A stretch of DNA of 64,000 nt from Lysinibacillus fusiformis (GTDB taxonomy: Bacteria; Bacillota; Bacilli; Bacillales_A; Planococcaceae), in the NCBI RefSeq assembly GCF_007362955.1, contig NZ_CP041696.1:124001-188000 (forward strand), given 5' to 3'. The notes below the pieces were generated by a model. That model saw only the letters and a program-made list of their open reading frames with translations. It searched no databases and was not told the DNA's origin. The first letter of the stretch is position 1. The number at the start of each line of letters is the position of its first letter. Of the stretch, positions 12,478-28,946 are shown piece after piece. Both the position numbers and the translations under genes were made by a program.

Positions 12478-12633
12478 TTAGCTTGCCATCATATCGATGC
12501 GAATCTTGTCCGCTATCATGGCGATAAATTCACTATTTGTCGGTTTCGACTTTAAATGATGGACCGTATAACCGAACATTGACGAAATGGATTCATAATT
12601 GCCACGATTCCAAGCAACTTCAATGGCATGACG
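12478..12633 (-). repeat. Direct repeat of the spo0A 3' end (junction of elements A and B)
   Basis: 156 bp identical to 28791-28946, exactly the last 51 codons of spo0A plus stop. Identity stops abruptly at both ends. It represents the att site on the far side of the 16.3-kb element A. An ORF running in from 12672 ([14 protein letters not shown], then the Spo0A tail, 64 residues) has only a weak GAAGG ribosome site and is probably not a gene. Confidence 0.92.
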
Positions 12634-12636
12634 CTT

Positions 12637-13024: not shown

Positions 13025-13037
13025 TTTCTCTCCAATT

Positions 13038-13348: not shown

Positions 13349-13510
13349 CTGACAGCGCAGAATACCGCAGTTTGCGATTGACTACCCGAGTTTGAAAAAT
13401 TGTAGCGAAATTTTTACGAGGTCAAAGTGATTTTTTGATATGGCGAATATTATTCTGAATTCATAAACCTAATATTTAACTAAAGCCCTTGTTAGCTTAA
13501 GTACATTAGT

Positions 13511-13798: not shown

Positions 13799-13860
13799 AG
13801 CTAATCACCCCCATTATAATTTCTAAATTTTCTAAGGCGTTGATTTATTAACCTGCACCG

Positions 13861-14010: not shown

Positions 14011-14210
14011 TTACCTCACCTCTTACCTAAATTGTACCATTATCTGCAATGGAAAATAATCCATTCTTTCACTAACCGTTAGTTGAATAGTAACAATATT
14101 TTAGAAAAACATCCATTATTTTTCAAAACGAAAAAAAGTTGTGCGTAAGGTTCGATGGTCAGTCGCGCCATATCGGAGTGTGTCCTTTGGGGGTCACGCA
14201 CTTTCAACGC

Positions 14211-14260
14211 AAAAAAAAAAGAAGCGACCAACAACGAAGTTTAATTCGTTCATTGATCGC
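14211..14260 (-). terminator. Terminator of the second recombinase gene
   Basis: Minus-strand imperfect hairpin of about 15 bp (GCGATCAATGAACGAA / TTCGTTGTTGGTCGC) followed by 10 or more T. Confidence 0.85.
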
Positions 14261-14265
14261 ATTTA

Positions 14266-14850: not shown

Positions 14851-15273
14851 AATTACGCCCCTTTTGAATGTATCCTTTTTATCATTATATCTAAAATAGC
14901 ATACATTCGTTAGATGCACAATTATTAAATAGCTATTTAACAGCGTTTTATATGTATCCTTTTCATAAAAAGCATACATTCATTCCCGCGGATTATGTGC
15001 GATCTTTCTGCGTCAAAACAGCGTTAATTTGAACCCCATGAGTTTCGAAGTGCTCCGTCCAATCTAGCGTTCTCCCCGATACATTACCGTGTATTACCTA
15101 TGTAAACCGCGCTAAATCGCTACTTTTACGCCTTCAAAGTGTTTGACCCACGTGTCCAAAAACGACGTCTCCCCGATAAATCTATCGTCCAAAACGTTGC
15201 TAAAAGGGGCAAAATGTAACATTAAAATGCGTTAATATGAACGTTTATCCCAAGTTTAGAATTGCCACTCACG
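14851..15273. other. Gene-poor stretch with two related coding-like fragments
   Basis: On the minus strand, 15112-15222 reads as a 36-residue ORF containing FLDTWVKHFEGVKVA, and 15000-15100 contains, in another frame, LDWTEHFETHGVQINA. The two look like copies of one decayed segment. Neither has a ribosome site. The promoter of the short recombinase gene probably lies near 14880-14960. Confidence 0.4.
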
Positions 15274-15627
15274 CTAATTGCTAAGTCCAAGCGCCATTCG
15301 TAGATAGGCTGCATCGCCTAAAATTTCGGATGCACTAACGCGTCGTCTATCTGAAAGTTTGCGATATTCTCTACGGTAATGCTCCGACCTTAATTCATGC
15401 TGTCGCTCTAACTCGTATTCAAAAATATAGTCATAAACTTTCCAGCGATACAGCGTCATACGCGTGATTCCTAGTGCATCCGCCATCTGTTGTTGCGTGA
15501 GTTTCCCGTAATGCTCTACGTCTAACTTTATCGCCAATACCTTCGTCATATTCCCTTTTAACTCTCGTTTCAATCGGTCCATTTCCGCATCTTTTATTTC
15601 AAAAGGTTTAATGCTGATTCGCACCAT
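15274..15627 (-). CDS. phBC6A51-like helix-turn-helix phage protein
   Basis: 117 residues from the ATG at 15627 (AGGAG, 7-bp spacing). The centre (LTQQQMADALGITRMTLYRWK) is a clear helix-turn-helix; the flanks are charged and helical. It resembles the phBC6A51-type HTH proteins of Bacillus prophages, which sit near terminase genes. Here no terminase is present. DNA-binding regulator or orphan packaging protein. Confidence 0.6.
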   Translation of the reverse strand: MVRISIKPFEIKDAEMDRLKRELKGNMTKVLAIKLDVEHYGKLTQQQMADALGITRMTLYRWKVYDYIFEYELERQHELRSEHYRREYRKLSDRRRVSASEILGDAAYLRMALGLSN

Positions 15628-15687
15628 CTTATCACTCCTCATAAAAAAATAGGCAAGCACGCTATAAAAGCCATGCCTGCCGTTTGT

Positions 15688-15774
15688 TTACTTGACGGAA
15701 ATGCCGTTAGGATTAACTGGCAACCGCATACGCTCCGCATTATTGTTGTATGATATCCAAAACTCTACGCTCAT
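15688..15774 (-). pseudogene. N-terminal stub of an XkdP-like tail protein
   Basis: 28 residues (MSVEFWISYNNNAERMRLPV and then NPNGISVK) and a stop. The ATGA overlaps the stop of the tape measure gene. In PBSX-like phages the gene after the tape measure is a LysM tail protein with this type of N-terminus. Only the first 28 residues remain, so the tail module appears deleted at this point. Family assignment is by resemblance. Confidence 0.55.
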
Positions 15775-18494
15775 GCCGTCGCCCCACGTCTCTCTAGTAT
15801 TTTAGTTACAAGTCCGTCTGCAATCCGGTTAATATCCGCATCTTCATGTACTATGATTTGGTCCGCTAATTTCGCAATTGAAACGCTTGGGGCGCTACCT
15901 TGCGTCGGATTAGCGTTACCATTATTAGACGTAGTATTATTAATCGTATTATTCGTAATAGACTGCGCTGACCCTGCGTATTTAAAGTCAGATACGCCAG
16001 CACCCCGCATCTCTCCGCCCATAATCGCGTCATACTGGTCAGCTTCGAATCGGTTTAATACGCGTTCTCCAACGTGCAAGGTTGCGAGATAATTGTCGAA
16101 GGGAATACGTCCAATACCGTTGAAGTGGGAACCGTCTTTCTTGCCTCCGCCAAATATATTAGTTGCAAAGTTCATTGCGCCACTTCCAATTTTCCCTACC
16201 CAATCCGGAATCTTAACGCTACCTAACATAGATACGAAATCCTTAACGTGCCCATATGCTGTCGATATCCAACCGCTTAGAGTCTCGAACCAACCTTGTA
16301 CGGTCGCTAATGCACCTGAAAATATATCAAACGCATTTTTGACGCCATTTAAGATAAATTCGACCAACGGCGCTAAGACGTTATCCCACAAGAATTTAAT
16401 TACGCCGGAAAGCCATTCGAACCCTGCAGCTAATGCGCCAAGAATCGGCTGTGCAACCGACCATAAAGTGGAGAATAGTTGTACTAAGAACGAAATGGCT
16501 GGCGCAATCACGTTATTAAATACGATTACAGCGATATCTCCGATAATTTGAAGGATGTTCCAAAGACCGCTTAGGTACGGTTCAATAATCGACCAAGCAT
16601 TCGTAATAATCGAAGATACTGTTGTGAAGGCTTGCGAAAATGCTTCTTTTAGCCGCTCAAATCCAGGCTGTAATTGCGTTATTTTTTCGGAAATGTACTC
16701 TTTGACCTCGCCGAATTTGGTTTTAACGTTGGATATAAATGCTGATATATTAGATTTCATAGTGCTTACGAAACCGCCTACCTTCGCAGCCGTATCAGGC
16801 GAGAATCCTAACGCAGTTACCAAATCCTTCGAACCACCACCAAGCAACATCTTACCTACACCGCTGATTACGTTTTTAACCTTATCGAATGCTGATTTTA
16901 GACTATATCCGAATTTACGAATAGTATCTACCTGCACTTTCGAGAATCCAGCACTTTCTAATACGTCCATAGATGCCTTATGCTCGCCATTAAAGATGTG
17001 CGTGATACTTTTAAAAGCGCCTTTCACTTTATCGAACGCATTTTTTAGAGAGTACGAGAACTTTATAACTAGTCTAATTTGTTCTTCACTAAGTCCGGCT
17101 TTTTCGAGAATATTTCTAGCTCCACCGTACCCACTTAACCCTTCGTTAAATATTTTTACGACTGCTTTAAATGCGCTGCCAATACTGTCGATAGTATTTC
17201 TAAACGATTCACTTTTGTCATAAAGCGTTTTAAATCCGAAGATAATGCCAGTTATTGCTCCTGCGACTAATCCGATTGGACTTGTGATAAATAAGAACGC
17301 AGCACCGACTAATTTGACGGTTCCTATGATAGCGAAAATACCCCCCACCACTGATACAAACGTTCCTATTACCTTTGCTACTTTGGTGACTACCGGCGAT
17401 ATCGACTCCCAAACTTTGTACACTGACTTAACCGCGCTAAATACTCTCGATAAACCGTTGGCGGTTTTTTGTACGAAGCTAAGCGCCTTGCTTTCAAGTT
17501 TCTCAAAGGTTTTTGAGTTAACGAAGCCGATAAACTGATTGAATAGCGGTTCAAACACTCTCTTAGCGCTACTCTTAAATAACGTCATAGCCTGCGAGAA
17601 CGTCATAGGCATGTTTCCGAATTTCTCCTCTATTTCCTCGGCTGCGTTGAATAAGGATCGCTTGATTAAATCCGAAGTAATCGTACCTTCCGAACTCATT
17701 TCCTTTAACGCTCCCATACTGACGCCTGCCGTCTTAGAGATTGCTTGCGCTAATAATGGGGCGTTTTCCATAATGGATCGGAATTCATCGCCTTGTAACT
17801 TACCGGCTGCCATCGCTTGTGTTAATTGATACATACCCGATTCCATTTCCTGCGCTCCCGCACCGCTGACAGCAAAGGACTTAGTCATTAACTCCGTAAA
17901 CTTAATAGCTTCGTTGTTACTTGAAAACGCATCTTTTGCGAGAAGGTTCAATTTCGCTACACTAGACGCCATGACATCGTATGATGATCGACTTCGTTGG
18001 GATGCTTTGAATATCTTGTCTTGTAATTGCGCCTGTGTTTGCAAACCATCATTAACGTTCGCTAATCGAGCGCTTATATTAGAGTAAGAATCTGCCGCAT
18101 CTGTAAAGTTACCGAATCCACTCGCTAGTCCTTGCGCTGACAGGTATGCTGCGCCAATTCCTAATAACTGCGATTTCAAGCCATTTACCGCTGACGACTG
18201 CGATTGAATACTGCTTGTCATCCGACTAGCTGCGGAGCTGTATCGATTAATATGCGTAACATTGTTAATAACCGCGCTAGTATTCGAATTTACGATGTTT
18301 GTGTTACGGTTAATCGTGTTAGACGTGTTATTAATCACGCTAGAAGTACGTTGCTGAGCGCTATTCATCGTACTTGTCGCACGCTCGACCTGTCTCATTA
18401 CGTTATTTAGCTGTTGCATTTGACGCGTAATGTTGCGAATTTTGCCGGAAATTCGATCCTCTAAGCTAAAGACCGCCTTTAAGTCATATGCCAT
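15771..18494 (-). CDS. Phage tail tape measure protein
   Basis: 907 residues. N-terminal coiled coil rich in Asn/Ser/Thr; the conserved tape measure domain about 140-310 (GAGAQEMESGMYQLTQAMAA, KLQGDEFRSIMENAPLLAQA). Hydrophobic helices occupy about 365-430. Three related 60-residue repeats follow (GYGGARNILEKAGLSEEQI, HKASMDVLESAGFSKVQV, KDLVTALGFSPDTAAKV). The C-terminus (IPFDNYLATLHVGERVL) is also typical. It would set tail length and help DNA entry. No other complete structural gene is present in the element, which is very unusual. Confidence 0.9.
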   Translation of the reverse strand: MAYDLKAVFSLEDRISGKIRNITRQMQQLNNVMRQVERATSTMNSAQQRTSSVINNTSNTINRNTNIVNSNTSAVINNVTHINRYSSAASRMTSSIQSQSSAVNGLKSQLLGIGAAYLSAQGLASGFGNFTDAADSYSNISARLANVNDGLQTQAQLQDKIFKASQRSRSSYDVMASSVAKLNLLAKDAFSSNNEAIKFTELMTKSFAVSGAGAQEMESGMYQLTQAMAAGKLQGDEFRSIMENAPLLAQAISKTAGVSMGALKEMSSEGTITSDLIKRSLFNAAEEIEEKFGNMPMTFSQAMTLFKSSAKRVFEPLFNQFIGFVNSKTFEKLESKALSFVQKTANGLSRVFSAVKSVYKVWESISPVVTKVAKVIGTFVSVVGGIFAIIGTVKLVGAAFLFITSPIGLVAGAITGIIFGFKTLYDKSESFRNTIDSIGSAFKAVVKIFNEGLSGYGGARNILEKAGLSEEQIRLVIKFSYSLKNAFDKVKGAFKSITHIFNGEHKASMDVLESAGFSKVQVDTIRKFGYSLKSAFDKVKNVISGVGKMLLGGGSKDLVTALGFSPDTAAKVGGFVSTMKSNISAFISNVKTKFGEVKEYISEKITQLQPGFERLKEAFSQAFTTVSSIITNAWSIIEPYLSGLWNILQIIGDIAVIVFNNVIAPAISFLVQLFSTLWSVAQPILGALAAGFEWLSGVIKFLWDNVLAPLVEFILNGVKNAFDIFSGALATVQGWFETLSGWISTAYGHVKDFVSMLGSVKIPDWVGKIGSGAMNFATNIFGGGKKDGSHFNGIGRIPFDNYLATLHVGERVLNRFEADQYDAIMGGEMRGAGVSDFKYAGSAQSITNNTINNTTSNNGNANPTQGSAPSVSIAKLADQIIVHEDADINRIADGLVTKILERRGATA

Positions 18495-18496
18495 CG

Positions 18497-18817
18497 CTAG
18501 TCACCAGCCTCTCGACGTGCCTTGGAATATAACTTTTCAGTTAGCGCGCTCGCTTGCCTACTTGCTTGCCTATATTTTACTTGCGCTGATTTATCACCTT
18601 TTGCAAACTCAATAGCGAATGTTAGTGCATCGAGTGTTTTCTGTGCTACTGGCTTCATATCTGCGTTATTAGCAATCACGCGTAGTAAAGGCATTTTTAA
18701 CGCTTCTGCCTGTGCGATTTGAGCGCGTGTGATATAGCTTTGCGTATCAATCGTATTGATGGCATAACCCGCGTTCACTAGCGCGTAGCTGTCGTCTAAA
18801 GTTTTAAATGGATTCAT
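18497..18817 (-). CDS. Possible tail assembly chaperone-like protein
   Basis: 106 residues from the ATG at 18817 (AAAGGA upstream). Largely helical, no recognised motif. Position directly before the tape measure gene, with a 2-bp gap, is where siphophage tail chaperones lie. The open frame extends upstream to 18967 and overlaps the preceding gene, but no slippery heptamer is seen. Assignment rests on position only. Confidence 0.5.
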   Translation of the reverse strand: MNPFKTLDDSYALVNAGYAINTIDTQSYITRAQIAQAEALKMPLLRVIANNADMKPVAQKTLDALTFAIEFAKGDKSAQVKYRQASRQASALTEKLYSKARREAGD

Positions 18818-18847
18818 TTGCATCAATTCCTTTCGTTTTTGTACATA

Positions 18848-18883
18848 GAAAAAAGACACGAGGCCCAAAACGGACATCGTGCC
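18848..18883 (-). terminator. Intra-operon terminator
   Basis: Minus-strand GCACGA-t-GTCC / GGGC-c-TCGTGT hairpin followed by TTTTTT. It lies between the 75-residue gene and the gene before the tape measure, so it could attenuate tape measure expression. Confidence 0.75.
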
Positions 18884-18899
18884 TTGCGTTGAAATTTCG

Positions 18900-19127
18900 T
18901 TATTTAGTTTGTTGCTCTGCCGCACGTTTAACGTTTGCGTATAAAACCCGCGATTCCATTGAGCCAAGCGCTCTTGCAGTTTGCATCGCGATTTGTACGT
19001 CTTGTTGCTCGATTTTACCGTCCATCAGTTTTTGCTTTAATCCCGATTCTACGATACGGAAGTTAACACCTTTTCCCTTCGCTTGTTGTGCTAACATTGC
19101 TTCTACTTGTTCGTTATATCTACTCAT
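18900..19127 (-). CDS. Small phage protein, 75 residues
   Basis: Helical, basic and glutamine-rich; AAGGAG ribosome site. No family recognised. It lies in the run 18497-21000 and ends just before a terminator. It could be the first half of a split tail chaperone pair. Confidence 0.55.
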   Translation of the reverse strand: MSRYNEQVEAMLAQQAKGKGVNFRIVESGLKQKLMDGKIEQQDVQIAMQTARALGSMESRVLYANVKRAAEQQTK

Positions 19128-19129
19128 TA

Positions 19130-19807
19130 TTATTTCGCTCCTTTAGTCTTAGTTGGTGCTTCTGCGATATATTCAAAATCGTTCGGTTGATGTCCGTTTG
19201 TGAATAAAGATACTTGACTAAGTACCTCGCGTACGCCGCTCAAAGCCCCTTGTCTGCGCATAACATTTGCAGAGCCGGTAGGATGTGTTGCTGGCGAAAT
19301 CTCTCTCGTTTTACCTTGCGAACGATTTGCCCTAGCGATCTCTGCAATCTCCTCACGTAATTCTCCGTATGCTGCTTCGCCTTCTCGATGATCGATAATA
19401 CAACTTAGGAGTAAGTCCCTCGCCATTTTTAATTTCGCTTCTACAATAGGCTCGAAATCCGCTCGAATCATAGGTACAAATGCGTTTTGGTATTCGTTTA
19501 CTACATCTACAGACGTAATTAACCTATCAGGCATAGCTGATTGTGCTAATCGTGCATCACGCTCTCTGCGTGCGATAACCTCTTTCTGTAATGTTATATC
19601 TTCGTCAAGTTTAGCGAGTTGCTCTGTTGCATCTGTCCCATGTTTAACACTCTCTGTAAACATAACTTCGTATTGTGTCTCCAACTCTTTTAAACGTGCG
19701 TGCGCACTTTCTGCATCTTGTTGGTATTGTATTGATTTTGTAGCACGTTCTAATCCTTCCTTTTTATAATCTTCTAATAGTTGAAATTCGTATACTTTAA
19801 TTCCCAT
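19130..19807 (-). CDS. Coiled-coil phage protein, 225 residues
   Basis: Residues 10-90 are a predicted coiled coil (EGLERATKSIQYQQDAESAH). The rest is helical with a polar C-terminus. It overlaps the upstream gene by 11 bp and is 2 bp from the next. No recognised domain. A scaffold or tail role is possible but unsupported. Confidence 0.55.
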   Translation of the reverse strand: MGIKVYEFQLLEDYKKEGLERATKSIQYQQDAESAHARLKELETQYEVMFTESVKHGTDATEQLAKLDEDITLQKEVIARRERDARLAQSAMPDRLITSVDVVNEYQNAFVPMIRADFEPIVEAKLKMARDLLLSCIIDHREGEAAYGELREEIAEIARANRSQGKTREISPATHPTGSANVMRRQGALSGVREVLSQVSLFTNGHQPNDFEYIAEAPTKTKGAK

Positions 19808-20222
19808 TTGATTCTATCCCCTTTGTTTTTAGAATTTGAATAATTTTTTCTAGCTTGATAATGCACCACAACCGCCATACCGGAATAACTGGCGCCGGCT
19901 GTTCGTCTTGCTTGTCCAACTCGAATAATTCGACTAACATTTCCTTGTTGCGGGTAATCTGCTCGCGTGTACCCTCTATTTCCTTGCGATAAATCACCGG
20001 ATGCTGAACGTTCATTAAGTCTCGATACAACTCTTTGCTATCCGTCTGTAACTCGTTAATTTTATACGCCGATAAATCGTCCAGTAAGTCGATTACATCA
20101 CCATAAGGCTTCGTAATTTCGCCAACTACTGTAGAAATACCGCGTTCATCTGTTTCGTAAATTAGCAGTGAAATAAACGGAACATCTCGCAATGGAACAA
20201 TTGATAGTAAGGCGAAGCCCAT
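19797..20222 (-). CDS. Phage protein of unknown function, 141 residues
   Basis: The start codon overlaps the HNH gene's stop (TAATG). N-terminal beta-like segment (MGFALLSIVPLRDVPFISLL), then helical. It resembles small phage proteins encoded near tail genes, but I do not recognise the family. Confidence 0.55.
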   Translation of the reverse strand: MGFALLSIVPLRDVPFISLLIYETDERGISTVVGEITKPYGDVIDLLDDLSAYKINELQTDSKELYRDLMNVQHPVIYRKEIEGTREQITRNKEMLVELFELDKQDEQPAPVIPVWRLWCIIKLEKIIQILKTKGIESNGN

Positions 20223-20779
20223 TAACTCACACCTTCTCTTCGCAGTTCACTCGCTTCATCTGCAAAGCCTTGTTTCCACGCTTCGATTTCTGCTGGCGTA
20301 GGCTCATGTTTTAATAAACGACTAGCAAACTGTTTAACAAATTCATGCCATACCTCGTCAGTAAATTTCTCGCTAGACTGATAGAAGTCGTATACATGTG
20401 AGTTACTTTTAGCTGCGTTACAGCCTCGGCAACAAACAATGACATTTTCATCGATATTGATTCCTAAAAACACATGATCGATAGTTGCTTCTGTCGTAAT
20501 CTGTGAACCTCGCGTCAGCTCTACGTCACAATAGGCGCAATTTGTGGCGTTTAGTACGTCTTGAAGTGTCGCTTCCGTATAACGAATAGCTGCTTTGTGT
20601 CTGTATCCATGCTTTCTTATGCGTTCTAATAAGTACGCACCATTTTTATAGCGCTCTTTACTCCGACATGTTTTACATTTTGTCATTCGACCATTCTTAG
20701 ATGGTGCGTGTTTATGGAAGTCTGCCAATGGTTTAACTTCGCTACATATCCTACATTTACGTTCTGTTTCGATTATCAT
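20222..20779 (-). CDS. HNH endonuclease with zinc-binding cysteines
   Basis: 185 residues. N-terminal CRICSE...CKTCRSKERY zinc knuckle, then the HNH core: CAYCDVEL, TIDHVFLG (the His of the motif) and CCRGCNAAKSN. This is the full CxxC-DH-CxxC-N arrangement. HNH proteins in phages serve in packaging or as free-standing homing nucleases. The ATG overlaps the end of the XRE gene by 4 bp. Confidence 0.82.
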   Translation of the reverse strand: MIIETERKCRICSEVKPLADFHKHAPSKNGRMTKCKTCRSKERYKNGAYLLERIRKHGYRHKAAIRYTEATLQDVLNATNCAYCDVELTRGSQITTEATIDHVFLGINIDENVIVCCRGCNAAKSNSHVYDFYQSSEKFTDEVWHEFVKQFASRLLKHEPTPAEIEAWKQGFADEASELRREGVS

Positions 20780-21000
20780 TTCATTTCGTCCCCTTCTTTT
20801 TCTTCATATAAAAAACGGTCAAACGCTTCATTCCGAGGAAATTCACGTCTAACCGTTGCTTTAAATTTATCTGATGCAGTTTTTCTCTTTTTCTCAATAT
20901 CGTTAATATGTCCGATTGAATATTTAATTCGTTCGGATAATTGACTAAGTGTTAAACCATAGAAAAATCTCGTTTTACGTAAGAAATCGCTAAAATCCAT
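20776..21000 (-). CDS. XRE-type helix-turn-helix protein
   Basis: 74 residues from the ATG at 21000 (GGGGA upstream). LTLSQLSERIKYSIGHINDIE is a Cro/CI-type helix-turn-helix, unusual in that the recognition helix is followed by KKRKTAS. The position inside a late-type operon suggests a late regulator. Target unknown. Confidence 0.7.
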   Translation of the reverse strand: MDFSDFLRKTRFFYGLTLSQLSERIKYSIGHINDIEKKRKTASDKFKATVRREFPRNEAFDRFLYEEKEGDEMK

Positions 21001-21050
21001 AGTAGAGTCCCCTTTCATTTTGTTGTCTTTTGTTGTTATTTACGCTAATT

Positions 21051-21086
21051 GTCTAAATAAAATAGCCGACTTTTCCGTATCGGCTT
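21051..21086 (-). terminator. Terminator downstream of the zinc-finger phage gene
   Basis: Minus-strand AGCCGA / TCGGCT stem with ATTTTATTT following, 28 bp past the stop of the 21114 gene. Confidence 0.65.
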
Positions 21087-21113
21087 CCTCATATATAGCT
21101 GAGTTGGTCGTAC

Positions 21114-21854
21114 CTAAATTTTATATCCCCCTAATGCTGCCATTTGGGCGCGAATCCGTTCTTGTTGTAGCTTTTTAGGTCCATAACGCGCAAGCAAGTC
21201 CGCCTCAACTTCGCCATGGCCTTTTTTTATTACAGTTACTTTTCCGTATCCTACATGTCCGCCTATCTTAACGTGAATATTACGAGGAACATTGTACCCG
21301 TCATAATCAATTTGTTCTGCAGTTTTACGCTTACCGCCCATTTCTGCCTTACGTTTTTGTTGGGCTACATATTGCTCGAAGTCGTCTCCAAATGAATAGA
21401 CTTTACGTTTGCGGTCATACTCGAACATGTGCCAATCAGAACTCCAAAACGGATACTCTAGCGGTTTTCCTTGATAAGATGACGCATAATGTAAATCTAA
21501 CCACGACAAACGGCGTACTTTACCGACTTTACGGACTTCTCGCCTCCAGGCTTTTAACACGATGTCCTTACCTGTACCGCACTCTTTACTACATGTTACT
21601 GAACTATTATTTTTCGTCTTATCTCGATAGTAGTAACCACAGTGAGCGCAACGGCGTACTTTTGGATCGTCAACACCCTCAAAATGACCATCTATTACTG
21701 CTGCAGCTATTTCTAATGCGTCATGATACTCCACGTTTATCGGAAAATATCTACGTGCAAACTCGACTGCTCCTTCGCCTGGTCTAACTTTAAAAAACGT
21801 ATGTTTTAATACGTCACCTTTTTTTAATTTAATTTTCGTATTGATAGCTGTCAT
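21114..21854 (-). CDS. Phage protein with a zinc-finger-like segment
   Basis: 246 residues from the ATG at 21854; an ATG at 21860 is too close to the AAAGGGG site. CAHCGYYYRDKTKNNSSVTC followed by SKEC gives four cysteines in a zinc-finger-like spacing (about residues 70-95). The rest is basic and aromatic. It overlaps the end of the helicase-like gene's open frame region and probably belongs to the replication module. Family not recognised. Confidence 0.6.
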   Translation of the reverse strand: MTAINTKIKLKKGDVLKHTFFKVRPGEGAVEFARRYFPINVEYHDALEIAAAVIDGHFEGVDDPKVRRCAHCGYYYRDKTKNNSSVTCSKECGTGKDIVLKAWRREVRKVGKVRRLSWLDLHYASSYQGKPLEYPFWSSDWHMFEYDRKRKVYSFGDDFEQYVAQQKRKAEMGGKRKTAEQIDYDGYNVPRNIHVKIGGHVGYGKVTVIKKGHGEVEADLLARYGPKKLQQERIRAQMAALGGYKI

Positions 21855-21898
21855 ATCCATTTCCCCTTTGCAGAATAATTTTTGGTAGAATTTTAACT

Positions 21899-23116
21899 TT
21901 AGATTTCGTATCGGGTCCACTTATCTAACAACTCACGCATACGTTCTGACGGGATATATGCGTGGATCGGTTCGCCATTCCTAATACGCGAGCGCCATAA
22001 CCATTGAACAAGTTCACTCAACGCGTATAAATCTTCGTCTACACTCACGCAATTGTCTTGAAAAAAGGACATTTTGTCTTTATTCATAAATCGATTAATT
22101 AAATACGCAACTGCTCGGCGGTTCGCATATTCATTTGTAGCGCGAGCATTGTGAGGAATAAAGCAGTTTTTCACACTAAAACCCCGTGGTGCTAAATATG
22201 GCTCTACCTCTTTTAATGTCGAAATATACACGTCAGCAACCTTTGCGTTATCTGCGTAGTGTTTGAAAAAATTCACAGTATTCTTTTTAATTTGATCGAG
22301 CGTATCAATATCGTATTTTTTTAACTTCGCTTGACTTAGTGCATACTTGCCTTTGCCTACCGCATTTAACTTCTCATTGTCGGTCACATTTATTAATTCG
22401 CGTAGTTTTTCCCGACCTTCTGCTTTTACGTCATAATCACATAATTCGTACTTATCGCCGTTCTTTTGAACACTCTTAAATTCATACTCTAGTCCGAACA
22501 TATCGAAGTAATATCGTTGCATTTGGCACTTAAATAGATACGTCAAGACAATCGCTTTAGGGAACGCCTTAAAAACGGCTGGAGGAAATGTCCAAACCAT
22601 AAATGAACCTCGGAATAAATACAGATTCCCCGCTTGTGCTAATTCGCGAATATCTTTATAGCGACTGTTATCATTCGGGTCGCCAGTCCAGTCAACGCGC
22701 ATAGTATCTTCATTAATTACGATGTCACCATTTGATTGCAACCGTTTTATATCTGCGGATTTAATCGGCACACTCTCAACAATATCCATAACCTCGTCAA
22801 GAATTAACGTGTATCCCGACTGCTCTAACAACTCGATAAGCTCCTCGTCAGCCTTCGCAAATAAAGCGTGTGTACTCACGATATTGCGATTATTGGCGAC
22901 TAAGCGCTTTAAATCTTCGAGTTTAGATGTGCCATTGTAGATTGTAGGTTCGACGAAGCAATGTTCTGTCACACTTGTTTTGATACGCTCAACCTCTGAT
23001 AAAAAAGGAGTAATAAAGATGAAACTATCCAGCGGGCTTGCCTCATTCATGTGCTGTATTGCGTATTGCGTTTTTCCTTTTCCCATAATTGCGTCCACTA
23101 CTAAAATTTCCGTCAT
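21899..23116 (-). CDS. Superfamily 2 helicase-like phage replication protein
   Basis: 405 residues. Walker A AIMGKGKT near residue 10, Walker B LILDEV (about 104-109), TPF and STHA motifs between them, and a C-terminal Arg-rich segment (QWLWRSRIRNGEPIHAYIPS) typical of phage DEAD-like replication or origin-binding proteins. Likely ATP-dependent DNA unwinding at the element's origin. No origin was identified. Ribosome site AGGGGGAA before the ATG. Confidence 0.72.
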   Translation of the reverse strand: MTEILVVDAIMGKGKTQYAIQHMNEASPLDSFIFITPFLSEVERIKTSVTEHCFVEPTIYNGTSKLEDLKRLVANNRNIVSTHALFAKADEELIELLEQSGYTLILDEVMDIVESVPIKSADIKRLQSNGDIVINEDTMRVDWTGDPNDNSRYKDIRELAQAGNLYLFRGSFMVWTFPPAVFKAFPKAIVLTYLFKCQMQRYYFDMFGLEYEFKSVQKNGDKYELCDYDVKAEGREKLRELINVTDNEKLNAVGKGKYALSQAKLKKYDIDTLDQIKKNTVNFFKHYADNAKVADVYISTLKEVEPYLAPRGFSVKNCFIPHNARATNEYANRRAVAYLINRFMNKDKMSFFQDNCVSVDEDLYALSELVQWLWRSRIRNGEPIHAYIPSERMRELLDKWTRYEI

Positions 23117-23398
23117 ATTCGTTCCCCCTATTTTTCAAATTAGTACGGTTAAAATTCTACGATTCCGTAGAAAAAAATCACAGAAACGTTGATATACCGC
23201 GGTTTATAGCGTGTCTCCCTTAAATAAAAAGAGACGTAAAAAGTTACTCGTTATGCAAGACAGCGATAGCTGGCTTAAATGTTTTGGTACTTTGTATAGC
23301 GTTTATAAAAGATAAAACCTTTGCGTCGGCTAAAGCCTCCGCAGCTATCAATCTATTAATTGATTACGATAGAAATAATCGATAGATATTGATACGGA
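23117..23398. other. Intergenic region with a hairpin
   Basis: Contains a TGCGGAGGCT / AGCCGACGCA stem near 23318-23342, placed to terminate the 23399 gene, and the promoter region of the helicase-like gene. No ORF supported. Confidence 0.4.
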
Positions 23399-23593
23399 TT
23401 ATTGCGTCTGTTGCGTTCTTTTACTTTTGGCGAGAATCTCGTTAATTAGTTGTGATCGTTCAAACACAAAGACGAGTTTGCCCCACCTATGACGACTCGG
23501 CTCCGTTTTAATTAAGGCTTGTCCAGCGTCCATAATTGATTGTGCTACTTGTCGAGAATGAATTACGATAAATTTTTCGTTTTTCGCTTGCAT
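23399..23593 (-). CDS. Small phage protein, 64 residues (DUF5659-like)
   Basis: FIVIHSRQVAQSIMDAGQAL, then KLVFVFERSQLINEIL. This beta-helix-beta-helix pattern resembles DUF5659 phage proteins. Good GGGAGATGG ribosome site. The coding sequence also contains TGCGTctgtTGCGT. Function unknown. Confidence 0.55.
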   Translation of the reverse strand: MQAKNEKFIVIHSRQVAQSIMDAGQALIKTEPSRHRWGKLVFVFERSQLINEILAKSKRTQQTQ

Positions 23594-23788
23594 TGTTGTC
23601 CATCTCCCTGTATAATGACATTATAAATCTAAATTTGATAATATAGGTTTAGTCTAGGTGAAAATAGACAGCCCAACTTATAGTATATCGTCAGTGCTTA
23701 CAAATTGTAAAGCGCTTTTTTGCATTTTATTTAAATATTTTTCCAGTATTCGGACGATATTAACGTTAAGCCTTACGGAGAGTAAGCT

Positions 23789-24361
23789 TCAATCCGCTTT
23801 CGATAGGCGCCGTTCACTTGGCGACGTCGCCAACTTTCCAAATACTTGCTCGATTCGCAATGCTTTTTCCTCGGCTATTTGTCGGGCATATTCGGCTTGC
23901 TCTGCTTTTTCCGTAGCCTGTTTAGCATGTGATTCTAATTCGATAATTCGCTCACGGTACTCCTTTAATGTATCGATATCGCCGTTCAGGACTTCCAACT
24001 TTGCTTGCGCCTTTGATGGCGTTGAATCCGCGGAAGGCTTTGCGACTTCATACGTAAGTGACACTGGCAAATCTTCGAGAAGTTCTTGTTCGTGACAATT
24101 TGTCACAATCAAATCGTAGCGTTGGATTAATCGACTGACCATTTTACGGTTCATGCCGAGGGCTTTCGTATACCATTCCTCGAAACATCCGTAACCGTTC
24201 TTCGCTAAAGTATCTTGGGCCTCTTTTAACTCCTTCCCTAATGCTGTGTACGCCTTGCCGACAATTTCGCGCATATTTAACTCTTTCCTACGTAAGTAGT
24301 CCGCAGTAGACTCGTCTAGCGTCTCATATTGAAACGTGGTTAATTCGTTCACTTGTGCCAT
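23789..24361 (-). CDS. DUF3102-like phage/plasmid protein
   Basis: 190 residues. Residues 30-85 (KAYTALGKELKEAQDTLAKN, FEEWYTKALGMNRKMVSRLI) match the DUF3102 pattern, a helix-turn-helix type fold common next to replication genes. A coiled-coil tail follows (about 125-175). Probably DNA binding; may act in replication or partition. GGGAG ribosome site. Confidence 0.65.
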   Translation of the reverse strand: MAQVNELTTFQYETLDESTADYLRRKELNMREIVGKAYTALGKELKEAQDTLAKNGYGCFEEWYTKALGMNRKMVSRLIQRYDLIVTNCHEQELLEDLPVSLTYEVAKPSADSTPSKAQAKLEVLNGDIDTLKEYRERIIELESHAKQATEKAEQAEYARQIAEEKALRIEQVFGKLATSPSERRLSKAD

Positions 24362-24586
24362 TCCGTTAATTCTCCCTTCGTTATAGGCGTTCTAGCCTTC
24401 GTATGATAAATACTTCGACTTGCGATTTAAAACCGTTTCTAACCTTGTTTAGGATGGTGAAACGATGGTGCTATGTTTCCCAACTATCTATACCAGAACT
24501 CAAACGCCTTCCTGGACACACCAACCCTTAAAAACACAATTTTTACTATAAATGGTGATATACTATATTAAAGGAGGGAATAAAAA
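24362..24586. other. Divergent intergenic region
   Basis: Separates the DUF3102-like gene from the plus-strand membrane protein gene. It must hold both promoters. No clear consensus pair was found. Confidence 0.4.
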
Positions 24587-24919
24587 TTGGAATTTAAATT
24601 TGGTGGTGGTTCTATTGTTCTACCGCCCTTACATATTACGATTATCGCAATAATCGTTATTTTCCTTTTAGTAAAGTGGAGCAAGGAATTAGAAACAAGA
24701 CGTTTTACTATTTACTTTTACTTTCTAATTAGTACTTACATTGCTCCAATCTTTTCTAGCAGCACAAAAGATGGTATCTTTCAGCTTTGGATTCCTTTAG
24801 GATTTATAGTAGTATTCTTTTACTTGTTTCGTAGCGATAGAAATCATCCAGCTAAAATGAAAGCCTGTATTCTAGGTCTTTCCATAGCAATATATCAGTT
24901 AATTCTGCAATATTTCTGA
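24587..24919 (+). CDS. Plus-strand membrane protein of element A, 110 residues
   Basis: Starts at TTG with a strong AAGGAGGG site 8 bp upstream. Four hydrophobic segments (about 12-28, 42-55, 66-80, 92-108). One of only two plus-strand genes in element A, so likely expressed in the dormant state. Its 3' untranslated region would carry the four-hairpin array at 24966-25099. Family not recognised; a moron-type cargo or immunity protein is possible. Confidence 0.65.
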   Translation: MEFKFGGGSIVLPPLHITIIAIIVIFLLVKWSKELETRRFTIYFYFLISTYIAPIFSSSTKDGIFQLWIPLGFIVVFFYLFRSDRNHPAKMKACILGLSIAIYQLILQYF

Positions 24920-24965
24920 CGGATTTTTCTATCCCATTAACGGACGCTCTGGTTATAAGATTAGA

Positions 24966-25099
24966 AAAGCTAGGCGTTGGCGCACCTAGCTTTCAACGAC
25001 CATTGTTGGCGCAATGATCTTTCGTATATGTTTGCTAAAGCCAGTTGGCGCTGACTCTAGCGAATATTTGACGACTCGACTCGTTGGCGCGAGTGAGTT
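24966..25099. repeat. Four stem-loops with invariant GTTGGCGC loop
   Basis: The octamer occurs at 24976-24983, 25005-25012, 25044-25051 and 25083-25090. Each is enclosed by its own inverted repeat: 9 bp perfect (AAAGCTAGG / CCTAGCTTT); 6 of 7 bp; 8 of 10 bp; and 4+5 bp around a one-base bulge. Stem sequences differ while pairing is kept. No T run follows any of them, so they are not simple terminators. The strand of any transcript is unknown. The array lies between two convergent genes. Confidence 0.8.
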
Positions 25100-25134
25100 C
25101 ACTTTTAGTATTCCCTTAATATACCACCCGGTGA

Positions 25135-25497
25135 TTAATTAGAAGCCGTTATTACTTCCTCTAAAGTAAGCGTCATCTTAAAATCTCTTTTCCAGCGTTT
25201 ACTTACCTTTTTACGATAGTTTACCGACGTTTCAATTTCCCCTGTTACATTACGTAGTGGATTTAAAACAGCATCCAAGCGAGCCATTTCATCCTTCACG
25301 ACTCTGCGCTTTTTAAGTGTGTCATGTAATTGAGTGACATAGCTTACCGCGTATTCTTCGCCTGGATCGATTCCCTCTAAGTCGTGATACATCTTGCTAA
25401 CAAACTTATCTAAGCGCGACAACTCTTTACTTAGTACGCCTCGTTGAGCGTTTAATTCCGACATGAACTCGTTAAACTTTGAATGATATTCGCACAT
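25135..25497 (-). CDS. Helical phage protein, 120 residues
   Basis: Coiled-coil rich (LSKELSRLDKFVSKMYHDLE), with a GGGGGAAC ribosome site. Second gene of the early leftward unit after the repressor-controlled promoter. No family recognised. Confidence 0.55.
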   Translation of the reverse strand: MCEYHSKFNEFMSELNAQRGVLSKELSRLDKFVSKMYHDLEGIDPGEEYAVSYVTQLHDTLKKRRVVKDEMARLDAVLNPLRNVTGEIETSVNYRKKVSKRWKRDFKMTLTLEEVITASN

Positions 25498-25608
25498 AAC
25501 CGTTCCCCCTTACGTTTTCATCTGCAAATTTATGAATTCCGTATAATCTACCGTATCAAATACCTGTATCAGCTGACGATACCGTAGTTAAATACGGAAA
25601 ACTACGTA
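25498..25608. other. Spacer with TACCGTA motifs
   Basis: CTACCGTATC and GATACCGTAG form a nearly inverted pair, and CCGTATAATC lies beside them. Possible regulator sites between the first two early genes. Confidence 0.35.
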
Positions 25609-25857
25609 TTAAGCAATCTTCGCTGTAAGTAAACGCAGATAACCTTTTAGCATATTGCGTTTTATATCACCACTAGCGCATTTTAGAATGTCTGTAGCGT
25701 CTGCGTAATCTAAGCTGTAATCTTCATCGTCGATAAATAGCGTTGCTTCACGCGCCTGCTCGCATGTTACGAGTTGAATGTCTTCAGTTAAATGTGTACT
25801 GATGATTGATACTACTTTACTGTCGTCTATTGCTACGTGTTCAATCGTTTGGTTCAT
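25609..25857 (-). CDS. First early leftward gene, 82 residues
   Basis: Acidic protein, GGGAGG ribosome site, directly under the promoter/operator region at 25883-25950. Position corresponds to a Cro- or antirepressor-type early gene, but there is no helix-turn-helix pattern. Function unknown. Confidence 0.55.
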   Translation of the reverse strand: MNQTIEHVAIDDSKVVSIISTHLTEDIQLVTCEQAREATLFIDDEDYSLDYADATDILKCASGDIKRNMLKGYLRLLTAKIA

Positions 25858-25882
25858 TTGTAAAACCTCCCGTTAAATTTTT

Positions 25883-25976
25883 GACTACGGATTGTAGTCG
25901 TTAAACATATAATATATCAACTACGTTCCGTTGTCAACTACATTCCGTTGTCAAAATTAAATAAGTTTTATATAAT
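25883..25976. promoter_or_regulatory. Divergent promoters with repeated operators
   Basis: Leftward promoter: TTGACA (25937-25932), 17 bp, TATTAT (25914-25909). Rightward promoter: TTGTCA (25948-25953), 17 bp, TATAAT (25971-25976). Two head-to-tail 17-bp units, TCAACTACGTTCCGTTG (25917-25933) and TCAACTACATTCCGTTG (25934-25950), cover both -35 regions. A palindrome GACTACGGATTGTAGTC lies at 25883-25899. This is a classic lysogeny-type switch layout. Confidence 0.8.
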
Positions 25977-26004
25977 CAATTCAAAGGGAGAGTGGGATAA
26001 TCTT

Positions 26005-26226
26005 ATGCGCGTGAAATCAACTTTAAAGCAAGTATTAGACGAACGAAATCTATCTATTTCAAAGTGTGCTGAAATGTGTAGCCTACCAAAAGAGACTGTT
26101 CGACGCATGTACAATGACACTACAATGCAATATCAACGAGATACTTTAGGTACATTATGTAAAGTATTGAATGTAAGTATTTCCGACATCTTAGCATTAG
26201 AAGATAAAAAAGACGACGGCCAATAA
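26005..26226 (+). CDS. Cro/CI-type repressor
   Basis: 73 residues from the ATG at 26005. The helix-turn-helix is LSISKCAEMCSLPKETVRRM, followed by the typical LGTLCKVLNVSISDIL. Its own promoter is overlapped by one of the 17-bp operator units. A compact single-domain repressor of the YozG/Xre-small type. It should hold the leftward early genes off. Confidence 0.8.
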   Translation: MRVKSTLKQVLDERNLSISKCAEMCSLPKETVRRMYNDTTMQYQRDTLGTLCKVLNVSISDILALEDKKDDGQ

Positions 26227-26273
26227 CGGCTATCGTCTTTTTACTTAAAGGTATGTACATCTAATCTCTTTTA

Positions 26274-27008
26274 CTATAAAGGCGAAATATACACCGTAAC
26301 TCTCATATTTTCATCACTCAGCTTTTCTAGATCAGTAATAAGACCGTGAGGGTTTCTAATATGCGAATCTTTGTCATACACGAAACATATCAAATGAGAG
26401 TAGTCTTTAAGTTGTTTATATCTCTCAAAGTCAATAATTAATTGCTCTCCAATTTGTTTATCCGAGAGATTTTTATTTGTCATTTTTGTCTCTATTACTA
26501 TTCCATGTAATGGCAATAAAAAATCTACCCTTGAATTACCTCCTGCATAACTAGGAACATAATCCTCAGGTCTAATATCATTGATAAATAATTTTAAAAT
26601 AGACAGCATAGAATCTTGTACATCATATTCATCTTTAATTGTAATAGTTTCCCTATTTGCGTATCTTCTTTTAATATTTACATCAAATTTATTAAAATTA
26701 AGACATACATTACTTATTATTGGTAATATATCATCGTTTTGCGGAGTGGGTGGTAATTTTTCGAACGCTTTAAGTATTGCTATTAAGGGATGATATACCT
26801 CATTACCAAAACCATTAGCATTTTCTGCTAACTCTCTAAATCTTAAGGTATCGGTATCTCCTGGAAAATTAGAATCCATAAACCTAATAGCAATAGCAAG
26901 CCAATTTTGGTATTCATCACTTGAATAAAATATATCCCCATACAAACCAGACTTTTTACTATTTCCTGCTACTTCTTCTCCCATAGAAATAAGTTCTCCA
27001 ATTTTCAT
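26274..27008 (-). CDS. DpnII/MboI-like restriction nuclease domain protein
   Basis: 244 residues from the ATG at 27008 (GGAGGC). C-terminal half carries SRVDFLLPLHGIVIETKMT, a PD-(D/E)XK core with D...ExK, followed by KQIGEQLIIDFERYK and HLICFVYD. This matches the REase_DpnII-MboI domain pattern. The N-terminal half is helical. No methylase gene is adjacent, so it is not a standard restriction-modification pair. It is more AT-rich than its neighbours and lies next to the integrase end, a typical cargo or defence position. Confidence 0.68.
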   Translation of the reverse strand: MKIGELISMGEEVAGNSKKSGLYGDIFYSSDEYQNWLAIAIRFMDSNFPGDTDTLRFRELAENANGFGNEVYHPLIAILKAFEKLPPTPQNDDILPIISNVCLNFNKFDVNIKRRYANRETITIKDEYDVQDSMLSILKLFINDIRPEDYVPSYAGGNSRVDFLLPLHGIVIETKMTNKNLSDKQIGEQLIIDFERYKQLKDYSHLICFVYDKDSHIRNPHGLITDLEKLSDENMRVTVYISPL

Positions 27009-27157
27009 ATATAAGCCTCCTATTTTAACTTTATACATAACTTATCATATAATAGGGTTTTATTTGAAGTATCTTACATAATCAATCAGTATTTCCTCTT
27101 GACAACCGAACCCGATTTTTCAACAGAATGGCTGATGAAATTAGGAAATTGGCGAAA

Positions 27158-27213
27158 CGTAGTTACCTTATATCTAAAACTCAAAAAAGAGTAATAGACA
27201 TAAAGTAACTACG
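27158..27213. repeat. Long inverted repeat
   Basis: Arms CGTAGTTAC-c-TTAT-a-TCTA and its complement pair at 17 of 19 positions, with an inner ACTC/GAGT stem around AAAAAA. It lies in the 27009-27555 region, which has no well-supported gene. Confidence 0.6.
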
Positions 27214-27298
27214 CGATTATTCAACGTCATGGAGTTTCATTGAGGTTGCTCGTCGCCTTGTTTCGTAGCAGACTTTCGCCCGTCACACTCTTACGCAA

Positions 27299-27478
27299 TT
27301 ATCGTCCTGCGTATGCGGTTGTCGTGAAGCTTGTCCGCATGAGTGCGATTACCCTGCCGTAACAGCCGATAATCCACCGCACCTTTTCAATTGGCAGATG
27401 CGCGCCATTCATCACTTCCGTAAACAAGGAAACGGTTTGACCTGTGATATATCCGATTTTTTTGCAACGGTTCGGCAA
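27299..27478 (-). pseudogene. Small phage-like ORF without a good start
   Basis: 59 codons from a TTG, reading RCKKIGYITGQTVSLFTEVM and ending TTTAYAGR. The composition looks like real coding sequence. A stop lies three codons upstream of the nearest GGAAAGG, which abuts the TTG with no spacing, so translation is doubtful. Probably a decayed or truncated small phage gene; family not recognised. Confidence 0.4.
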
Positions 27479-27555
27479 CCTTTCCAGGTTAGATTAACGA
27501 CGAATTAGTGGGCTACCTCGTCGCTACTACTAAAAAAGGGTGCACTTAATAGAAG

Positions 27556-27677
27556 TTGCATCATCGAATTTTTTTCGATATAATGAACCTTAAGTAAACG
27601 CAATTGCTACCAGGCAATTTTTAGCGTAGATATTAAGTTGTAAAGCCGTTAGTGCGTCAACACTAGCGGCTTTTTTC
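27556..27677 (+). ncRNA. Candidate small RNA with its own promoter and terminator
   Basis: TTGCAT (27556-27561), 17 bp, TATAAT (27579-27584), expected start near 27591. A TTGC/GCAA mini-hairpin follows, then a strong terminator AGCCGTTAGTG / CACTAGCGGCT with TTTTTT (27644-27676). The transcript would be about 85-90 nt with no ORF. The promoter spacer is a palindrome ATCGAA-TTTTT-TTCGAT, a possible operator. The same hairpin can end the oppositely oriented integrase transcript. Confidence 0.55.
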
Positions 27678-27680
27678 TAT

Positions 27681-28652
27681 TTAAATATTTAAGTTCTCTA
27701 ACGGACTATGCTGTCGGTACTTCTTCATCACTTCCTTATCAGCAAAATCTAAATAAATTTGAGCAGTAATATCAACGTTTGCATGTCCCAACAATCGAGA
27801 TAATGTTGCCAAATCACCGCCATTAACCAAATACCTTTTTGCAAAATTATTTCTAAGCAAGTGAGGCGTCACCTGTAACCCGACGTCTTTACTACGAAGT
27901 CTAAATGAACGCTCTACTCCCTCGATTCGTAATTTTGATCCTCTATTCGTCGGAAATACGTAAGAACTATCTGAATAACGGTCCTTGTACGCTAACCATG
28001 ACCTAAGATGTTTTCGCGTCTTTTCTGAATAGTAAACGAAGCGTTGCTTTCCGTTTTTGGTTTTGCGTAATAACAATGCATTACCTCGCAAATCTATATC
28101 AGATGCTACAGCTTCCAACAATTCTCCTATTCTTGCTCCAGTATCAAAGATTAATCGAGCTATTACCCAATCACGATATTGATCGAATTTCGTAACGTCG
28201 AAAGAACGGAAAAACTGCTTTAGTTCATTATCTTCGAGCATAACTTTAATTTTTCGCTCCGGTTTAACATTCTTTAAATCCCTCAAAGGATTGCTGCGAA
28301 GAAGTTGTTCTGAATATAAATGCGAATAAAACGCTTTTATGTTACGCACGTAATTCGCAATTGTCGTTTTACTAACTGGCTTGCCAAAATCGCTGCGTCG
28401 TTCCGGGTAGTTTACAGGCGTTTCATCGGCACTTACCTCAAACTTACCTCTCTCTTCGATTGAACGAATATAGGCTCGTACATGCTCCGTTGTGACGCTT
28501 TTAACGTCATCTATTTCAAAGTTATCCAAAAGATACCTTGCGAATAGTTTAAGCGTTTGCTCATACGATTTTAGCGTTTTAGGCGAAAGACCTTTTGCCG
28601 AACAATCTAACATATAACGGTCAATTTCGATTAAAAATGGACTTATAGACAT
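27681..28652 (-). CDS. Tyrosine integrase of element A
   Basis: 323 residues. N-terminal SAM-like core-binding domain (about 5-130), catalytic domain after 150 with Arg in DTGARIGEL, Lys in KTKNGKQRF, HLLRNNF, the His in LLGHANVDI and the Tyr in QIYLDF. All catalytic residues are intact. It lies 138 bp from the spo0A att site and is read in the same direction as spo0A. Its apparent ribosome site (GGGGGCG) is inside the 3' arm of the copied spo0A terminator, with the T run between it and the ATG. Confidence 0.9.
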   Translation of the reverse strand: MSISPFLIEIDRYMLDCSAKGLSPKTLKSYEQTLKLFARYLLDNFEIDDVKSVTTEHVRAYIRSIEERGKFEVSADETPVNYPERRSDFGKPVSKTTIANYVRNIKAFYSHLYSEQLLRSNPLRDLKNVKPERKIKVMLEDNELKQFFRSFDVTKFDQYRDWVIARLIFDTGARIGELLEAVASDIDLRGNALLLRKTKNGKQRFVYYSEKTRKHLRSWLAYKDRYSDSSYVFPTNRGSKLRIEGVERSFRLRSKDVGLQVTPHLLRNNFAKRYLVNGGDLATLSRLLGHANVDITAQIYLDFADKEVMKKYRQHSPLENLNI

Positions 28653-28659
28653 AAAAAAT

Positions 28660-28701
28660 ACGCCCCCTCAAACAGTCGGCATAAACTGTCTAAAAAGGCG
28701 T
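28660..28701 (-). terminator. Element-borne copy of the spo0A terminator
   Basis: Minus-strand ACGCC...GACAGT / ACTGT...GGGGGCGT, then ATTTTTT. About 94% like 8903-8943 by eye; the 85 bp between it and the spo0A stop is also recognisably related to 8944-9036. It would end the spo0A transcript in the present arrangement. Confidence 0.8.
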
Positions 28702-28708
28702 TATAATT

Positions 28709-28752
28709 TTCGCTATATAAGCGTTATCTAATTTAGATTTACCGGTCATTCT
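28709..28752. promoter_or_regulatory. Candidate integrase/Xis arm sites, right end of element A
   Basis: 28709-28730 is the inverted counterpart of 12637-12658, and TTTACCGGTCATTCT at 28738-28752 is the direct counterpart of 12661-12675. Confidence 0.5.
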
Positions 28753-28790
28753 CCGCTAACCTACACGCTAAAAACCTTGATATAGCGCCC

Positions 28791-28946
28791 TTAGCTTGCC
28801 ATCATATCGATGCGAATCTTGTCCGCTATCATGGCGATAAATTCACTATTTGTCGGTTTCGACTTTAAATGATGGACCGTATAACCGAACATTGACGAAA
28901 TGGATTCATAATTGCCACGATTCCAAGCAACTTCAATGGCATGACG
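28791..28946 (-). repeat. Proximal att copy inside spo0A
   Basis: Identical to 12478-12633 over 156 bp. The repeat unit begins at the Arg213 codon of spo0A. The crossover point cannot be placed more precisely from the sequence. Confidence 0.92.

Follow-up and report, generated by a model that had tools for sequence, protein, structure and literature searches.

A hairpin array with a constant CGCCAA loop in an apparently phage-like element of Lysinibacillus fusiformis: a possible multivalent kissing-loop RNA

Csr loops carry GGA, and the boxB loop is GNRA-like. In antisense control the loops usually differ from one another, and several identical loops in one RNA are unusual. According to an excerpt of PMC3753616, the six-base loop TTGGCG is common to loop-loop chimeras from the plasmids pMU720, R1, and ColIb-P9, and an interior loop is required in those chimeras. 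A title cited in PMC10724649 places 5'-rUUGGCG-3' in the loop of the ColIb-P9 target, and an extract of PMC4485353 describes the YUNR U-turn motif, to which UUGG conforms, as ubiquitous in one recognition loop of loop-loop antisense pairs. The hexamer CGCCAA, which is the loop of the hairpins described here, is the exact complement of the TTGGCG loop on the target side of the plasmid systems (PMC3753616, same excerpt), and from this complementarity CGCCAA would be expected in the antisense RNAs of R1, pMU720, and ColIb-P9 themselves. Literature searches found no report tying UUGGCG and CGCCAA to antisense RNA and none on phage-satellite antisense RNA with kissing.

The octamer GTTGGCGC occurs four times in the 64-kb stretch of DNA that was analysed (the window), always on the plus strand, at 24976, 25005, 25044, and 25083. 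About 1.2 copies were expected from dinucleotide shuffles, and 4 of 100 shuffles had at least four copies anywhere, so the count by itself is weak evidence; the significance of the copies lies in their clustering and their stems, not in their number. Among the 43 TTGGCG or CGCCAA hexamers on the two strands of the window, only these four had a stem score of at least 5. A clustering test found no group of at least three hairpins with the same loop hexamer within 150 bp in 30 simulated sequences of 64 kb (first-order Markov model, one strand per sequence), whereas the real window had one cluster of four on the minus strand, three of which also pass the threshold on the plus strand. The sequence-only reading of this DNA had described the four octamers as loops of separate inverted repeats with unrelated stems and had seen no other copy in the window. 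Inverted-repeat and stem-score analysis bore out the first statement, and the second holds as well, since this is the sole such cluster and none of the simulated windows had even three. A covariance model of the hairpins found no second array in the genome itself (best match outside the array, E 3.4).

All four hairpins have the loop CGCCAA on the minus strand. Hairpin 4 (25073..25100; bulged stem; 27.8 bits in the covariance model) is the first of the array on the sense strand; it is followed by hairpin 3 (25034..25061; 11 pairs, including two wobble pairs; 31.8 bits), hairpin 2 (24995..25022; 8 pairs, including one U-G; 30.8 bits), and hairpin 1 (24966..24993; 11 pairs; 31.3 bits), which is the last. 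The array had been taken to end at 25099, and the stem of the outermost hairpin extends to 25100. No Rfam 15 family reached its gathering threshold; the best was FsrA, at 16.3 bits compared to the required 80, on the other strand.

The fold of the minus strand of the array consists of exactly the four hairpins, each separate (−52.6 kcal/mol; z, −5.75), and none of 200 shuffles folded as well. The plus strand takes up another fold (z, −2.68), which 2 of 200 shuffles equalled, and its C.A mismatches within the array stems are U-G pairs on the minus strand. Consistent with this, G-U outnumbered A-C column types 9 to 1 in hairpins 1 to 3 of seven orthologous arrays (14 distinct hairpins; hairpin 4, which is bulged, hairpin 3 of the second G009 array, which has a deletion, and G003 were excluded) and 18 to 6 in representatives of 16 stem families (P = 0.011). 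The earliest such test, on 10 hairpins, was weak (15 G-U versus 8 A-C; P = 0.105).

Hairpin 1 on the minus strand consists of a G+C-containing stem followed by the U-rich tail TTTTCTAA and is thus terminator-like, a likely intrinsic terminator, so that the statement of the sequence-only reading that the hairpins do not resemble terminators fails for the one at 24966-24993. A separate terminator scan with another rule did not list hairpin 1, and hairpins 2 to 4 were not listed as terminators on the minus strand. Across the 13 arrays described below, a sense-strand terminator-like hairpin ends 11 (0.33 expected from Markov sequences), compared to none at the antisense end (0.61 expected). In seven of these 11 arrays hairpin 1 itself takes this role, in the other four (G003, G029, G049, and G233) a separate hairpin does, and at the G230 and L013 arrays none was found. 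A looser scan found antisense-strand terminator-like sites somewhere in the region at 7 of the 13 arrays. Because of the fold of the minus strand, the G-U excess, and the terminator-like ends on that strand, the RNA is most likely read from the minus strand with the loop G[CGCCAA]C, the opposite of the strand and loop originally written.

These asymmetries bear on the explanation that the palindromes act as DNA, as cruciforms or as protein sites at a replication origin or recombination site. The palindromes do adjoin a replication-like module, one hairpin is inverted in a relative (G006), and the accessory genes beside the array differ. However, a DNA-level element is improbable given the strand asymmetry of G-U versus A-C and of folding, and given the terminator-like ends on the sense strand and not on the antisense strand.

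The covariance model was built from 10 hairpins chosen as such, paralogues included. In these hairpins 84.5% of the pairing cells were paired, compared to 48.2% in shuffles, and the covariation score was 0.941, compared to 0.232 in shuffles and 0.067 to 0.208 in slid versions. The number of pairs changed on both sides (10 versus 8.5 in shuffles; 98 of 500 as high) was not above chance. Alignment of the orthologous arrays of six relatives, with G003 as a whole and the reversed G006 loop excluded, gave identity to the window at 133 of 138 loop positions (96%) and 439 of 473 stem positions (93%), compared to 119 of 177 spacer positions (67%) and 160 of 320 and 206 of 354 flanking positions (50 to 58%). 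The array is therefore an island of conservation in which loops and stems are kept and spacers and flanks are not. Loop variants among the orthologous arrays were CACCAT (G045), CGCAAA and CACCAA (the second and first arrays of G009, G009b and G009a), and CGTCAA (G006). The sequence-only reading had proposed selection on an RNA or cruciform loop; selection of a loop on varying stems is supported, and of the two levels it is the RNA that is favoured by the G-U bias, the covariation, the conservation, and the terminator-like ends.

The covariance-model search that had been proposed as a check was run, and the 10-hairpin model matched at an E value of ≤0.01 in 22 of 261 genomes of the family, with ∼2.6 chance matches expected at that value across the 261 genomes. 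The order-level search covers the same 261 genomes. When an array was defined as at least two different hairpins within 300 bp, each with a stem score of at least 5, seven of the 22 matched genomes had one: the genome itself, G001, G003, G006, G009 (two arrays), G014, and G045. Four further arrays (G029, G049, G230, and G233) were found among 32 neighbourhoods of homologues of the YonV-like gene (28) or of the early-operon genes (4) described below. Searches of more than 40 genomes apply stricter filters that let arrays go unseen, and these four surfaced only through the gene neighbourhoods. With one array in a viral contig (L013), the total was 13, 12 of them in genomes of the same family. 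Conserved copies in related elements, the absence of which the earlier reading had named as evidence against it, thus exist. The other arrays have two to five hairpins each. In L013, four copies of the loop stand on other stems, and two of these hairpins form in the minimum-energy fold; the scan gave one hairpin with at least four contiguous pairs, and the other three were read by eye. The 13 arrays and a single hairpin in G297 contain 50 CGCCAA copies, 46 of them distinct; 41 have at least 5 of 8 inner pairs and form 16 stem families. The invariance of CGCCAA in this set is circular, the motif having been the search query, and the alignment of orthologous arrays is less so.

Isolated hairpins were present in 9 of the 32 neighbourhoods. 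In seven the sense-strand loop is TTGGCG, and in two, including G297, it is CGCCAA; one of the seven has two TTGGCG hairpins 3 kb apart. The remaining 19 neighbourhoods had no such hairpin. The loop is exchanged for its complement in two relatives: hairpin 1 of G006 has the loop reversed to TTGGCG inside the same stem, and in G016 the position of the array is taken, on the sense strand, by a local TTGGCG-loop hairpin, which is absent from the minimum-energy fold of its 521-base region. G011 has both early genes and no array, with a single terminator-like hairpin instead. The array is dispensable, because G011 lacks it and only 4 of the 32 related-gene neighbourhoods have one.

At the level of the class, 5 of 398 genomes had a match at an E value of ≤0.003, including the genome itself and G169; the other three had one hairpin each. 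G169 carries the same hairpin twice at a distance of 266 bases (L267) and was left out of the array count, as were L273 and L275, with two weaker hairpins each. Twelve single-hairpin loci were inspected, and some hairpins were terminator-like and some lay within coding sequence. A scan of 243 loci gave as its top other matches L177, L234, L015, L069, and L012, which were rejected as short-period repeats with similar stems; in the same scan L239, L143, and L223 had two similar hairpins each. Three octamer pattern scans returned at least 120 matches each. A 17-base core of hairpin 3 was found in eight viral contigs, all of which have a single hairpin of this kind rather than an array, and a search with hairpin 2 gave no match in viral contigs. 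A 20-base exact match in phages D6E and PK3.5 covers one arm of hairpin 1 and part of the loop, forms no hairpin, and was attributed to chance. There was no match to the array DNA in plasmids or to the related G233 array in phages. One of the upstream proteins had no match in phages and viral contigs, and neither did its relative from G233 in a search of plasmids; for the other upstream protein, a search of phages with the relative from G233 gave none.

Single hairpins of other elements were also recorded. Two phage-like loci of genus g11 (L270:1440-1600 and L285:1440-1600) show, by eye, a TATAAT or TATACT hexamer, 25 to 32 bases, a TTGGCG-loop hairpin, and a T run, oriented opposite to the neighbouring genes; these could be antisense RNAs of ∼50 to 65 nt with the complementary loop. 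The same TTGGCG hairpin (arms gcactatatgt/acatagtagtg) lies on the sense strand near a YonV-like gene in G002, G054, and G225 (L425, L428, and L431). At L302:1440-1600 (G560, another family of the class), a perfect GCGCCAAC-loop hairpin comes immediately after a promoter-like TATAAT and may lie close to where a small RNA starts.

The array lies in an element (12634-28946) flanked on both sides by an exact 156-bp repeat of the spo0A 3' end (12478..12633 and 28791..28946; Spo0A identified by NCBIfam TIGR02875), with a period of 16,313 bp. The element also has a tyrosine integrase (27681..28652, minus strand) and a divergent promoter-like pair. It may be an integrated phage satellite (PICI-like), a class of ∼15-kb elements with an integrase, att repeats, divergent early promoters, and less than a full set of virion genes; a tape measure protein and a weakly TerS-like one are present, and no capsid or portal gene was noticed. 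The early leftward operon begins with an 82-amino-acid gene (MNQTIEH...; 25609..25857, minus strand), relatives of which also precede some other arrays. The gene directly upstream of the array encodes 120 amino acids (MCEYHSKF...; 25135..25497, minus strand). Neither upstream protein had a Pfam match above the cut-off. Facing this operon is a small helix-turn-helix gene (26005-26226) with a weak NCBIfam match to RstR repressors, below the cut-off. A convergent accessory gene (24587..24919, plus strand; 110 amino acids, hydrophobic, no Pfam match) follows the array. Such a convergent gene follows the array in the window, G001, G009 (both arrays), G014, and G006; it is not the same gene in all, its place being taken by related or other genes in relatives. 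The second minus-strand module includes a phrog_1733 gene (23789..24361), a YonV-like gene (21899..23116; phrog_2467; 38.5% identical to yonV of SPbeta), and genes for endonuclease-VII-like, tape measure (15771-18494; Pfam TMP_3), and weakly terminase-small-subunit-like (TerS-like; 15274-15660; no NCBIfam match) proteins.

Several other features of the region were seen. A protein with a DpnII/MboI-type nuclease domain (26274-27038; Pfam PF18742; E, 3e-43), near the repressor-like gene, is possibly defence cargo. Just outside the left repeat, a second tyrosine-recombinase-like gene (11394-12361), the longer piece of which has an NCBIfam match, is in two overlapping frames and apparently broken, which suggests an older or tandem insertion at the same site. 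A terminator-like hairpin by the integrase (27644-27671) has the one-base loop variant GCGTCAAC, and a GCGTCAAC-loop hairpin likewise adjoins an integrase-like gene in G230 (L450). G045 carries a similar element (L252), with an 850-amino-acid protein that is tape-measure-like by eye and has no NCBIfam match of note, and a weak model match (L252:16219-16246; 19.2 bits) beside its integrase-like gene. A Bacillaceae-1 RNA (RF01690; 59.5 bits) is at 2762-2829 of the window.

A predicted early leftward promoter (TTGACA-17-TATTAT; 25909..25937, minus strand; 11 of 12 consensus matches) is divergent from the helix-turn-helix gene. The promoter scan found 8 sites compared to 6.9 in shuffles, which is not above chance as a set, and the sites are predictions only. 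A second predicted promoter (TTTAAA-17-TATCAT; 24403..24431, minus strand; 9 of 12 matches, by consensus only) lies downstream of the array, as do the same hexamers at the same spacing in G001 and G014. The 16.3-kb phage-like element integrated in spo0A appears to have a short early transcript with the array as its 3' end. Antisense promoter-like sites were seen at 7 of the 13 arrays; they match the −10/−35 consensus at 8 to 10 of 12 positions, with no chance control, and are unshared. There was none at the other six, the window included.

We considered four explanations for the array and ranked a multivalent kissing-loop RNA first, a protein-binding array second and nearly as likely, a structure of the 3' end third, and the DNA-level element last. 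The first place of the kissing-loop reading, which we hold tentatively, is due to the complementarity of CGCCAA to the TTGGCG target loop of the plasmids. The sequence of the loop suggests loop-loop RNA pairing, a reading absent from the sequence-only account, and the ligand of the array would be another RNA with a complementary loop. The array would be transcribed from the minus strand after the last gene of the early operon and would be either free after processing or the 3' untranslated region of the early mRNA. Its identical loops could then bind one ligand several times. The most likely ligand would be an RNA whose U-turn loop reads UUGGCG and is held by loop-loop kissing, in the manner of antisense control in plasmids. 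In this way the element may titrate or silence the UUGGCG RNAs of another element, a competitor or a helper, or it may adjust its own early transcript.

The main competitor is that an RNA-binding protein recognises the loops as repeated sites, either in a sponge like CsrB or RsmZ or in antitermination of the nut/boxB type before the early terminator. The sequence-only reading had proposed a loop-binding protein, an antitermination element, or a decoy, and each of these may be right. This reading, which is possible, accords with identical loops on variable stems on one strand, with the 11 of 13 arrays that directly precede or include a terminator-like hairpin, and with the small uncharacterised proteins encoded in the same operon. 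However, the exchange of the loop for its complement in G006 hairpin 1 and the G016 hairpin fits pairing better than a protein that reads one loop. Furthermore, the loop has neither the GGA of Csr loops nor a GNRA-like boxB sequence, the modules downstream carry their own promoter-like sites (by consensus, with no chance control), which leaves no evident need for readthrough, and the upstream proteins lack a Pfam match above the cut-off.

Several observations also count against a kissing-loop RNA. CGCCAA is on the sense strand in 13 of 13 arrays as counted, which a protein ligand would explain equally well. No partner turned up in the genome itself: the covariance model gave no other hairpin below E 3.4, and within this genome only the fully overlapping opposite strand could serve. 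Also against it are the antisense promoter-like sites, which are unshared, at only 7 of 13 arrays, and absent from the window; the dispensability of the array; the L013 hairpins, only two of four of which appear in the minimum-energy fold; the absence of the G016 hairpin from the fold of its region; the number of pairs changed on both sides, which is at chance level; and the repetition of identical loops, which is unusual for antisense control.

The terminator-like hairpin 1 raises the simpler explanation that the hairpins only protect and terminate the early mRNA and that CGCCAA is merely a favoured stable loop of the lineage. The near-identical GCGTCAAC loop in the terminator-like hairpins by the integrases of the window and G230 agrees with this, as do single terminator-like CGCCAA- or TTGGCG-loop hairpins in other genomes and the isolated TTGGCG and CGCCAA hairpins in 7 and 2 of the 32 neighbourhoods. 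We nevertheless consider it unlikely. Termination needs no extra hairpins, and G011 has a single terminator-like one. The strong hairpins in these loci favour no other hexaloop so much: among 202 strong hexaloop hairpins in 678 kb, GCGCCAAC occurred 16 times, GTTGGCGC 8 times, and the next unrelated loop 3 times, a count biased by loci partly chosen for this loop and in which one hairpin may count on both strands.

A narrower form of the kissing-loop reading is a satellite-borne sponge in which CGCCAA loops soak up UUGGCG RNAs of helper phages, rival satellites, or plasmids; complementary loops do occur elsewhere (G016). We regard this form as rather improbable, and, if it were true, such loops would mediate RNA-level competition between mobile elements. 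The array is a structured RNA element outside Rfam 15, carried on mobile elements, in which the complement of a target loop well known from plasmid control recurs. If the loops were confirmed to pair, kissing-loop control would extend from plasmid leaders to multivalent arrays in phage-like elements, and the array offers a short, easily mutated target for studies of RNA-level regulation or competition of such elements.

Type III toxin-antitoxin RNAs were rejected as a comparison, since they require near-identical tandem repeats and the array stems are unrelated between hairpins. The CsrB, RsmY, and RsmZ sponge RNAs share several hairpins with a constant loop on variable stems, whereas all four array loops are CGCCAA without GGA, the hairpins are fewer, and the array lies within the predicted early transcript of a mobile element. 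Lambda nutL/boxB and HK022 put are RNA hairpins of an early phage operon just before a terminator, but the array has several tandem hexaloops, no GNRA-like boxB loop, and is not known to have a cognate protein; lambda-type nut sites combine such a boxB loop with a boxA and an N-type protein. The P4 CI and P1 C4 RNAs, which act in immunity as antisense RNAs, are similar as small RNAs of a satellite or phage early transcript that act via base pairing; for the array, in contrast, no complementary target and no Rfam match was found. CopA, Inc RNA, and RNAI of R1, ColIb-P9, and pMU720 differ in that the array repeats one loop, is in sense orientation within an early operon, has no consistent antisense promoter, and belongs to an integrated element rather than the leader of a plasmid replicon. 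Such countertranscript RNAs have their own promoter and are encoded opposite their target, and the array may work in a similar way. The likeness to these RNAs is that the array loop complements their TTGGCG target loop (PMC3753616, in the excerpt cited above) and that some stems, for example in G233 and G049, are interrupted by an internal loop beneath their upper part.
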